Positions 20,860-24,657 of a stretch of DNA of 54,345 bases are shown here, in pieces (the first letter of the stretch is position 1; each line of letters begins with the position of its first letter). The notes under the pieces were generated by a model. It worked only from the letters and a program-made list of their open reading frames with translations, made no database searches and was not told the origin of the DNA. The stretch is taken from positions 1-54,345 of the forward strand of contig CAJWAO010000006.1 of NCBI GenBank assembly GCA_913020765.1. Direction: 5' to 3'. The translations under genes were made by a program, and so were the position numbers. The DNA comes from an uncultured Flavobacteriales bacterium. Lineage in GTDB: Bacteria; Bacteroidota; Bacteroidia; Flavobacteriales_D; Crocinitomicaceae.

Positions 20860-23637
20860 TTAGAAAACAATATTTACAATTTTACCTGGAACAACGATTA
20901 CTTTTTTGGGCGTCTTTCCGTCCAACCACCTCTTTGTCATCTCCATACGCTCCACCTCTCTTTGAACCTCTGCTCTGTCCAAAGACAGTGAAAGATTTGC
21001 TTTGAATCGCATTTTCCCGTTAAATGAAATAGGGTAGTCAAATGAGTCCTCGGTTAGATATTCTTGATTAAAAATTGGAAAATTAGATTCAAATAAACTT
21101 CCCTCCTTATTTCCGATTTTCATCCATAGTTCCTCACAAAAATGGGGTGCATAAGGCGCGAGTAAAATCAAGAATTTATCCAATACCTCCAAGTTATTGC
21201 ATTTTTGCTCAGTAAATTCATTTACCGCAATCATGAAGGTAGATACACATGTATTTAAAGAATATCTGTCGAGATCATCCGTTACCTTTTTAATGGTTTT
21301 ATGTAAGGTTTTAAGTGCTGCTTTCGGGACGTCTTGTCCTTCTCTTAAAATAGACACTCCTTCCGGACTACAATACAGCCTCCAGCATTTACGCAAAAAA
21401 TTATGAACCCCGGAAATACCTTTCGTATCCCAGGGCTTGCTCTGCTCTATGGGTCCAAGAAACATTTCATAAAGCCGAAGTGTATCGGCTCCGTATTTTT
21501 GAATCAGATCATCTGGCGTTTGAACATTAAACTTGGATTTCGACATCTTTTCAACCTCATCACCACAGATGTAATCACCATTATCTTCCAATATGAAAGT
21601 TGCATTGGCATATTCCTTACGCCATTCTTTAAAGGCTTCAATATTAAGTTTGTTATTTTCAACCAATGAGATATCTACATGTATGGATTGAATTTCTTTA
21701 CCATTTACTTTTCCTTTGGTCACGAAGGTATTGCTATCTGCAATACGGTATACAAAACTGCTTTTTCCAAGAATCATGCCTTGGTTTATGAGCTTTTGAA
21801 AAGGCTCGTCAAAAGTAATATACCCTTGATCAAATAGAAACTTTGTCCAAAACCGTGCGTATAATAAGTGGCCAGTGGCATGCTCCGCACCACCAATATA
21901 CAAGTCAACTTGTTTCCAATATTCGGATTTGGATTTCGAAACAAATTCATTTTTATTCTTGGGATCCATGTATCTTAGAAAGTACCAAGAGCTGCCAGCC
22001 CATCCTGGCATCGTATTGAATTCCATCCTATCTCCCGAAAAATAATTCCATGAGGATTTTTCTGCCCGTGCCAATGGAGGCTCTCCATCTGGAGTAGGTA
22101 AATAACTGTCAATTTTGGGAAGCTCAATAGGTAAATATTGATCCTCAACAACACAAGGGAGCTCATCTTTATAGTATATTGGGAAGGGTTCGCCCCAGTA
22201 TCTTTGACGAGAAAAAACAGCATCTCTAAGCCTGTAATTTGTTTTACCTTTTCCAAAACCTTTTGATTCTAATGTCTCGATGGATTTTTTTATACCCTCA
22301 GCTACAGAACAGCCATTTAAAAAGAAAGAATCCTTGAGTATTCCGGTTTTATCAGTATGTGCAGCCTCAGAAATATCAACATCTTGAAATATATTTTTAA
22401 TGGGTATATCAAAATGACGTGCAAAATCATAATCTCTTTGATCTCCGCATGGAACAGCCATAACTGCACCCGTTCCATAAGTGGCAAGAACATAATCAGC
22501 GATCCATATTTGAATTTTATCACCACTTAAGGGGTGTATGGCAAATGCCCCTGTATTTTCACCAGTTATTGTCTTCACATCACTTTGACGATCACGTTCA
22601 GATTTTTTTACTGAAGCCTTTTGATACTTAGATACGGCCTCTTTATTTTTTTCTGTTGTAATATCTTTTACGTAAGGATGTTCTGGTGCTAATACCATAA
22701 AAGAAACACCAAATATAGTATCCGGTCGAGTGGTGAAAACCTCCAAAGGATTTTCATACCCCTCTATATCAAATAAAACAGAACTGCCAACTGATTTTCC
22801 AATCCAATTTCTCTGCTGCTCTTTGAGCGAATCTGTCCAGTCAATTTCGTTTAGTCCCTCAAGCAACCTTTCGGCATATGCTTTTATACGCATTGACCAT
22901 TGACGCATCTTTTTCTGAACTACAGGGTGTCCTCCGCGCTCAGACTTTCCATTAATCACCTCGTCATTAGCAAGCACAGTGCCAAGATTAGGGCACCAAT
23001 TTACCCAACTATCAGCAAGATAAGCCAAACGATAATTGTGTAAAATAGCCTCTTTTTTCTTTGAATCAAAAGACTTCCACTCCGCCGAGGTGAATTCAAT
23101 TTCGCAATCATTAGACGCCTTAAGGTTGGTATTTCCATTTGCCTCAAATTCTTCTATCAAGACAGAAATACGTTCAGCTTTATTCGACTTTTCGTTATAA
23201 TAACAATCAAAAAGTTGCTTAAATATCCATTGCGTCCACTTGTAATATTCTGGTGATGAAGTACGTACCTCTCTTTCCCAATCATATGAGAAGCCTAGTT
23301 GATCGAGCTGACTTCTATAGCGTTTGATATTCTCTTCTGTTGTAATCGCCGGGTGCTGTCCAGTTTGAATGGCATACTGCTCAGCTGGGAGTCCAAATGA
23401 ATCATATCCCATAGGGTGAAGCACATTATATCCTTGTAGCTTTTTGTACCTAGCCAGTACATCTGAAGCTATATATCCCAGAGGGTGACCTACATGAAGC
23501 CCTGAGCCCGAAGGATAGGGAAACATATCCAAAACATAGTACTTTTCTTTAGCTGAATCCTCAGAAACCCGATAACTATTATTTGCCTGCCAAAATGAAA
23601 CCCATTTAGATTCTATTTCCCTAAAGTTGTACTCCAT
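20860..23637 (-). CDS. leuS: Leucyl-tRNA synthetase
   Basis: Class I synthetase charging tRNA-Leu, 925 residues, normal for Bacteroidota. The HIGH signature appears as HVGH (GSGLHVGHPLGY, about 43-54), the KMSKS loop as KMSKSK near residue 696, and the CP1 editing domain carries TTRPDTIFG. The C-terminal anticodon-binding and LeuS-specific end domains are present (VVVPGKIVNIVF at the tail). The 3' end faces the MerR-B12 gene, 20 bases apart. Upstream lies the region with the divergent sigma-54 promoter; I see no strong TAnnTTTG box for leuS itself, only TATCTTTA about 20 bases before the ATG. Confidence 0.97.
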   Translation of the reverse strand: MEYNFREIESKWVSFWQANNSYRVSEDSAKEKYYVLDMFPYPSGSGLHVGHPLGYIASDVLARYKKLQGYNVLHPMGYDSFGLPAEQYAIQTGQHPAITTEENIKRYRSQLDQLGFSYDWEREVRTSSPEYYKWTQWIFKQLFDCYYNEKSNKAERISVLIEEFEANGNTNLKASNDCEIEFTSAEWKSFDSKKKEAILHNYRLAYLADSWVNWCPNLGTVLANDEVINGKSERGGHPVVQKKMRQWSMRIKAYAERLLEGLNEIDWTDSLKEQQRNWIGKSVGSSVLFDIEGYENPLEVFTTRPDTIFGVSFMVLAPEHPYVKDITTEKNKEAVSKYQKASVKKSERDRQSDVKTITGENTGAFAIHPLSGDKIQIWIADYVLATYGTGAVMAVPCGDQRDYDFARHFDIPIKNIFQDVDISEAAHTDKTGILKDSFFLNGCSVAEGIKKSIETLESKGFGKGKTNYRLRDAVFSRQRYWGEPFPIYYKDELPCVVEDQYLPIELPKIDSYLPTPDGEPPLARAEKSSWNYFSGDRMEFNTMPGWAGSSWYFLRYMDPKNKNEFVSKSKSEYWKQVDLYIGGAEHATGHLLYARFWTKFLFDQGYITFDEPFQKLINQGMILGKSSFVYRIADSNTFVTKGKVNGKEIQSIHVDISLVENNKLNIEAFKEWRKEYANATFILEDNGDYICGDEVEKMSKSKFNVQTPDDLIQKYGADTLRLYEMFLGPIEQSKPWDTKGISGVHNFLRKCWRLYCSPEGVSILREGQDVPKAALKTLHKTIKKVTDDLDRYSLNTCVSTFMIAVNEFTEQKCNNLEVLDKFLILLAPYAPHFCEELWMKIGNKEGSLFESNFPIFNQEYLTEDSFDYPISFNGKMRFKANLSLSLDRAEVQREVERMEMTKRWLDGKTPKKVIVVPGKIVNIVF

Positions 23638-23730
23638 AACGATTTTTAAGAGTGTAAAGATAGTTATTGTGATTCATGATATAAAGCTGTGAACTAAAGA
23701 TTAAATTTTTCAGAGATAGCACATTTTTTT

Positions 23731-23745
23731 TGGCATAAAACTTGC
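23731..23745 (+). promoter_or_regulatory. Sigma-54 (RpoN) promoter
   Basis: TGGCA at 23731-23735 and TTGC at 23742-23745 give the full -24/-12 pattern TGGCAN6TTGC, with exactly 10 bases between GG and GC. The predicted start point is about 23757. No ORF follows; an intrinsic terminator lies about 80 bases further on. Confidence 0.75.
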
Positions 23746-23756
23746 ATCAGTTGAAA

Positions 23757-23858
23757 TAAAATAAAGAAATATACTTTCTTACTTTTTAATTTTTAACACT
23801 TACTTTTTCATAATTCAATGTTTTTTAACACAGACAGCCCGGAATTTCCGGGCTTTTT
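23757..23858 (+). ncRNA. Candidate sigma-54-dependent small RNA
   Basis: About 100 bases between the sigma-54 promoter and a strong intrinsic terminator. The stretch is stop-rich in all forward frames and the only ATG (23819) would read through the terminator, so a protein product is unlikely. The body is U-rich and little structured, with two copies of CTTACTTTTT (23778-23787, 23799-23808) and two of TTTTTAACAC (23790-23799, 23822-23831), which could be paired target-binding segments. It lies between leuS (divergent) and the UbiA-like gene (convergent). No known RNA family was recognised. Function unknown. Confidence 0.55.
23836..23858 (+). terminator. Intrinsic terminator of the candidate small RNA
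   Basis: A perfect 9-base-pair stem, AGCCCGGAA and TTCCGGGCT, with a single base between the arms (so a few pairs open to form the loop), followed by TTTTTG on the plus strand. On the minus strand no U run follows, so it works mainly for plus-strand transcripts, yet no plus-strand protein gene precedes it. Confidence 0.85.
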
Positions 23859-23871
23859 GTTTATTCCATTT

Positions 23872-24657
23872 TTAGAAGCAAAATAAAATAATACCGACAA
23901 TTAAAAAGCAAGCATCTATCCAAACAAAAAAATAATCTTTATTTATTCTAGAATAGAAAAAAGTTAAGACGAGCATATAGCTAAAGCTCATTACCCAGGC
24001 CCACATAGATTCATCGTATACAATCACTGAATACGATATACCCAATATTGATAACATGCGAATTAAGTTTAATGAATTATTGGTACCCAAAAGTTGAGGA
24101 ATTGTTTTCATCTCCTCAGGATCAAAATCAATATCTTTCATATCGGAAGGAATAAGGATGGCAAACAAAAGTAAAAGTCCTCCTAATGGAAATACCAAAT
24201 TACCAAACAGCATGTATGGCATGATATGCAATAAAAATGACCAAATACCAAACACTAGGAATATTTTAAGGTATGGGATTTCTCGAAGACTATATCGGCG
24301 GATCCTGCATACGTATAAAATACAGATCGATACACAAATCGCACATAATAAATGAATCAGATATTGTTCTGAAAAATAACTTAGGTATAAATACATAGTA
24401 CTGATAACAGAGCTAAAAGATAGCATGGCAACGGAAAGCTTATTAGACTTCAACCAAACTAAAACCCCATAAGGTAAATCACGTCTCCTCAGTTTCCAAA
24501 GACGATGGAAATTGTATATGCTCAGAATTCCAAATGCAAACATCAAAGCGTAATGGGTAGAATACGCATTCTCCTTATATAGAGCAGAAACATATACAAA
24601 GCTGAAAATCGCCAAATGAAGGTGAGAGCGAATTGCATATTCTATTACCTTGCTCAT
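23872..24657 (-). CDS. UbiA-like integral membrane protein
   Basis: A 261-residue protein with about eight membrane helices. A loop near residues 172-190 (SDMKDIDFDPEEMKTIPQLLG) resembles the second aspartate-rich motif of UbiA prenyltransferases, including the following T-[IL]-P-x-L-[LG] part. The first motif (NxxxDxxxD) is not there; the matching loop reads YNFHRLWKLRRRD. It may therefore be a divergent member without prenyltransferase activity or with another substrate. I cannot assign a function. It is divergent from the glycosyltransferase gene and its end faces the small RNA terminator. Confidence 0.65.
   Translation of the reverse strand: MSKVIEYAIRSHLHLAIFSFVYVSALYKENAYSTHYALMFAFGILSIYNFHRLWKLRRRDLPYGVLVWLKSNKLSVAMLSFSSVISTMYLYLSYFSEQYLIHLLCAICVSICILYVCRIRRYSLREIPYLKIFLVFGIWSFLLHIMPYMLFGNLVFPLGGLLLLFAILIPSDMKDIDFDPEEMKTIPQLLGTNNSLNLIRMLSILGISYSVIVYDESMWAWVMSFSYMLVLTFFYSRINKDYFFVWIDACFLIVGIILFCF

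Follow-up and report, generated by a model that had tools for sequence, protein, structure and literature searches.

Sigma-54-dependent small RNAs (sRNAs) such as Qrr1-5, GlmY/GlmZ, CrcZ and NrsZ have been described in Proteobacteria, where several of them act with or on Hfq. To our knowledge, the well-characterised examples are all from Proteobacteria, and little is known of the small RNAs of Bacteroidota or of Hfq-independent riboregulation in general. The locus described here, from an uncultured Flavobacteriales bacterium (contig CAJWAO010000006.1), is like the proteobacterial genes in being a putative free-standing sRNA gene with a -24/-12 promoter that would need an AAA+ activator. It differs from them in having no sequence relation (no Rfam 15 family matched above the gathering threshold, and relaxed thresholds gave nothing credible) and in that Hfq gave no match above the cut-off in five carriers of 89-100% completeness. 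MicA and RybB, the SigmaE-dependent sRNAs of enterobacteria, are comparable in proposed logic only, as the branch of an envelope or protein stress regulon that represses through non-coding RNA; they use another sigma factor, and the present setting has no detected Hfq and no established outer-membrane targets.

Two RNAs of Flavobacterium are closer by description. Rfp36 of Flavobacterium psychrophilum (PMC9723704, Table 2A), from the same order, is a putative regulatory RNA with a sigma-54 (SM4) promoter, and the measured sigma-54 regulon to which it belongs also includes groESL, lon, dnaK, htpG, skp, a thioredoxin family protein and gliding genes (PMC9723704). The present RNA, which is likened to Rfp36 by description and not by sequence, differs in that no homologue turned up beyond one genus when 399 genomes of the order were searched. 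Rfp18 (PMC9723704) is likewise a conserved flavobacterial sRNA thought to base-pair, and is also set apart by description: its third stem-loop is predicted to pair with metalloprotease mRNAs, whereas the core of the present RNA is predicted to be unpaired and is AU-rich. As judged from the comparisons below, the locus is a new, clade-restricted family of predicted sigma-54-dependent sRNAs.

The leuS-adjacent locus

The window (the whole stretch of DNA analysed, 54,345 nt) carries beside leuS, an essential tRNA-synthetase gene, a predicted non-coding RNA gene of ~100 bases, which was found as one copy each in 13 related uncultured marine Flavobacteriales (Table 1). An earlier note on this DNA had proposed a sigma-54 promoter with correct GG-N10-GC spacing and an RNA that starts near 23757 and ends at an intrinsic terminator on the same strand, with no protein gene between. 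The spacing is indeed exact, with the GG of TTGGCATAAAACTTGCA at 23732-23733 and the GC at 23744-23745. This puts -12 at 23745 and +1, as inferred from that position, at ~23757, in agreement with the proposed start. When the whole genome was searched with covariance model R1, the predicted transcript was the sole match (118 bits, E 2.8e-17). The terminator stem (23836-23854) is followed by TTTTT, and in the alignment a T run lies 3' of the stem on the + strand in every complete copy of the sRNA. No ORF of at least 60 aa was found between the leuS start and the next gene, nor was any ORF conserved in the sRNA stretch among the carriers.

Table 1. Features of the putative sRNA locus and its neighbours, with positions in the window
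Feature	Position	Strand	Basis
Sigma-54 (-24/-12) promoter element TTGGCATAAAACTTGCA	23730-23746	+	exact GG-N10-GC
Predicted small RNA, ~102 nt	23757-23858	+	covariance model R1 match
5' hairpin SL1, outer AAAA/UUUU and inner AGAAA/UUUCU	23757-23788	+	2 pairs changed on both sides, A-U to G-C
U-rich core, mostly unpaired, conserved (TTTTTAACACTTACTTTTTCATAATTCAA)	23789-23819	+	identity, unpaired probability, single copy per genome
Small hairpin SL2 (TGTT-TTTT-AACA)	23819-23830	+	2 pairs changed on both sides
Intrinsic terminator AGCCCGGAATTTCCGGGCT and T run	23836-23860	+	3 pairs changed on both sides
leuS, leucyl-tRNA synthetase, divergent neighbour	20860-23637	-	TIGR00396, 930 bits
Probable -7 box of divergent leuS promoter, TATCTTTAC, variant of TAnnTTTG	23653-23661	-	conserved near leuS
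261-aa membrane-type protein, convergent neighbour, no known family	23872-24657	-	

The probable -7 box of leuS, assigned by means of a published consensus (PMC9723704), is kept as (A)CAAAGATA/(G)TAAAGATA in congeners both with and without the sRNA. On the other side, every carrier whose sequence extends far enough has a homologue of the 261-aa protein adjoining leuS, as do many non-carriers. This protein had no Pfam or NCBIfam match and evolves fast, with 41-86% identity among carriers.

Taken each from this one sequence, the promoter and the terminator are not beyond chance: the sigma-54 pattern with at most one mismatch had 2 matches in the whole window versus 1.7 expected, and 3 terminators were found versus 1.3 +/- 1.0 expected. 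As these statistics are not significant, it is the comparison across genomes that settles the locus. The sigma-54 match inside leuS (22969-22985, -) was taken as chance.

Distribution, conservation and fold

The leuS-upstream regions were compared for those congeners with a leuS match, from a genus sample of 86 genomes. Promoter, core and terminator occurred in the same order beside leuS in 13 of the 86, the window genome included, and in these carriers 82-110 nt separated the equivalent sigma-54 site from the leuS start. The earlier note had named a lack of promoter and terminator conservation among relatives as grounds for refuting it; in these carriers both are conserved. In the alignment, the GC of -12 is replaced by GT in G026 and G090 with the spacing kept, which puts these two sites outside the strict pattern scan. 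The copy in G089 runs into a contig end inside the terminator, and G068 represents a fourteenth case, in which the contig ends just past the -24 half-site. About 60 other congeners with enough sequence had no such element at leuS; the core pattern was present once per genome in exactly the 13 carriers and nowhere else, and a reversed control pattern had 0 matches. In the leuS tree the 12 carriers with usable leuS (G068 among them) formed one clade with support of 100/99.

A covariance model search that covered 70 genera of the order, with 399 genomes in all, gave 12 matches, all in this one genus and none outside it. A scan of ~85,000 species genomes with the core pattern returned 12 MAGs of Flavobacteriales/Crocinitomicaceae (including UBA952) and five unrelated matches (Fusobacteriaceae, Gottesmanbacteria, a rumen bacterium, Carboxylicivirga and Clostridia), which were set down to chance because they are without a sigma-54 site.

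Between the two main carrier subclades the fourfold sites of leuS are 28% identical, so that neutral sequence is saturated at this distance, and the unpaired core is 82% identical. The corresponding values for two nearer subclades are 31% for the fourfold sites and 91% for the core. The region from the leuS promoter to the sigma-54 site is far less conserved than the sRNA. Based on these comparisons, the predicted transcript is under strong purifying selection.

Misaligned terminators in a plain MAFFT alignment made for a poor automatic consensus fold, and a structure of three hairpins was therefore set by hand from 5 sequences and then tested on 13. On the 13 sequences 96% of cells were paired and 7 pairs (15 cells) had changed on both sides, counts that lean in the model's favour as the structural alignment was fitted to it. 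None of 500 shuffles scored as high, and slid structures reached at most 3 pairs. The compensatory changes are spread over all three hairpins (SL1, SL2 and the terminator) and count in favour of a non-coding RNA. The core, of which AUAAUUCAA and UUUUUAACAC are segments, has a mean unpaired probability of 0.79.

Two CTTACTTTTT and two TTTTTAACAC segments had been read as duplicated target-binding parts. Both copies of each are present in the window, but the G030/G073/G090/G091 subclade lacks the CTTACTTTTT pair, and the small hairpin takes in the second TTTTTAACAC, which is altered in several genomes. As the clade as a whole does not keep the duplication, this reading of it is unsupported.

Mode of action and alternative readings

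Given a real sRNA under sigma-54 control, base-pairing of the U-rich core with mRNAs is somewhat more likely than not. Searches with two long-seed patterns, one for either half of the core, found no conserved long mRNA target and no recurrent orthologous match across carriers. In 4 of 5 cases, a match of TTGAATTATGAAAA outside the sRNA locus coincides with the start of a gene for a signal-peptide protein, with the ATG in the same register each time. The genes matched are not the same from genome to genome, and signal-peptide genes commonly begin with ATGAAAA, for which reason these matches lend pairing weak support. In addition, the core base facing the G of AUG varies (C, U or A), and this lack of conservation counts against strict pairing with AUG.

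The main rival to pairing is that the same sigma-54-dependent RNA would sequester a protein, its U-tracts titrating a U-tract-binding protein of the cold-shock or RRM type, much as CrcZ titrates a regulator in Pseudomonas. Runs of ~5 U that recur 3-4 times per copy at variable spacing, the unpaired state of the core and the lack of a long conserved target for the two long-seed patterns would all suit such a role. However, the conserved non-U letters of the core (AACAC, AUAAUUCAA) go beyond the needs of a bare U-tract binder, and no candidate protein was identified; Hfq went undetected in the five carriers. We therefore consider sequestration possible though unlikely, and pairing with mRNAs the likelier but unproven mode of action.

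Other readings do without a free RNA altogether. The element always adjoins leuS and its hairpin could slow polymerase arriving from the - strand, which would be in keeping with a cis element that serves leuS or the 261-aa protein gene as an insulator, an antisense leader or a 3' UTR/terminator. Such a role is very unlikely, as every complete copy carries the T run behind the stem on the + strand, with no such consistency on the - strand, leuS has its own conserved -7 box near its start in congeners without the element as well, and leuS and the neighbour homologue stay adjacent in many congeners that lack it. That the stretch encodes a small peptide is hardly credible: some genomes have a short ATG frame at the 3' end, but the carriers have no start or reading frame in common, indel lengths do not keep to multiples of 3, and which frame is longest depends on the subclade. 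The non-significant single-sequence statistics are what one would expect if promoter-like and terminator-like strings had arisen independently in an AT-rich gap. We give next to no weight to such a chance association and regard it as refuted by the conservation and covariation in relatives, where spacing is kept and compensatory changes occur in 13 genomes with saturated synonymous sites.

The sigma-54 setting

Sigma-54 itself is encoded in the genome by rpoN, whose product has all three domains (TIGR02395, 429 bits). Genome G000 has two strong sigma-54 activators (PF00158), one consisting of a receiver and AAA+ without a recognised DNA-binding domain and the other of AAA+ and a Fis-type HTH. 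The NtrC-like response regulator of 388 aa, with receiver and sigma-54 AAA+ and no recognised C-terminal DNA-binding domain, is located at L287:526-1692 (-) (G000:C4), and proteins similar to it in length top the activator list in many congeners. Most of the correct-spacing sigma-54 matches in G000 fall within genes; a recurrent site (TGGCACATGAATTGC) and a Skp/OmpH-linked site (TGGCACAACCTTTGC) were both set aside as lying within a coding frame. In the carriers tested, htpG and a thioredoxin-like gene each have a conserved sigma-54-like site 36-37 nt upstream, and both genes match genes of the F. psychrophilum sigma-54 regulon (PMC9723704). By analogy with that regulon, a role for sigma-54 in protein quality and envelope stress would fit here.

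Conserved spacing, compensatory changes in the hairpins, purifying selection, the presence of rpoN and activator genes and the clade's other sigma-54-like sites together argue strongly for the sigma-54-driven small RNA of the earlier note. We are highly confident that the locus is a real sRNA gene, and its control by sigma-54 is very likely.

We propose that sigma-54 RNA polymerase would transcribe this independent single-copy gene from ~23757, activated probably by the NtrC-like receiver-AAA+ protein or the Fis-type AAA+ protein of the genus, and that transcription would end at the intrinsic terminator near 23858-23860. Folded into SL1, SL2 and the terminator, the RNA would display a U-rich unpaired segment of 30 nt. 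This segment would most likely pair with A-rich translation-start regions of mRNAs, e.g., the AUGAAAAA starts of exported proteins, and, without Hfq, potentially lower their translation or stability as part of a sigma-54 response to protein-quality or envelope stress. On balance we lean towards this statement as a whole, that of a sigma-54-driven ~102-nt sRNA whose core pairs with mRNA starts in a stress response without Hfq. A more far-reaching version is speculative and quite unlikely to hold in full. In it, this lineage-specific sRNA would have become the RNA branch of a small regulon through which sigma-54 answers protein stress in marine Bacteroidota that lack Hfq. An NtrC-type activator would act enhancer-free after losing its DNA-binding domain, and the one AU-rich unpaired segment would silence many exported-protein mRNAs.

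Defined as it is by promoter, structure and clade boundary, the gene is directly searchable in marine metatranscriptomes, and it potentially ties an sRNA to a sigma-54 regulon for protein quality like that measured in Flavobacterium.

Inspection by eye revealed no conserved palindrome upstream of the sRNA promoter and no enhancer motif common to the sRNA and htpG upstream regions. Upstream of htpG (L229, L239, L241), a conserved palindrome-like TTTCNTCGAAA and GACAAAGTGTCA lie 5' of the sigma-54-like site and may be an enhancer. A conserved sigma-54-like site was also observed ~70 nt before the start of a secreted protein with long Asn/Met-rich stretches (L253, L240, L248).
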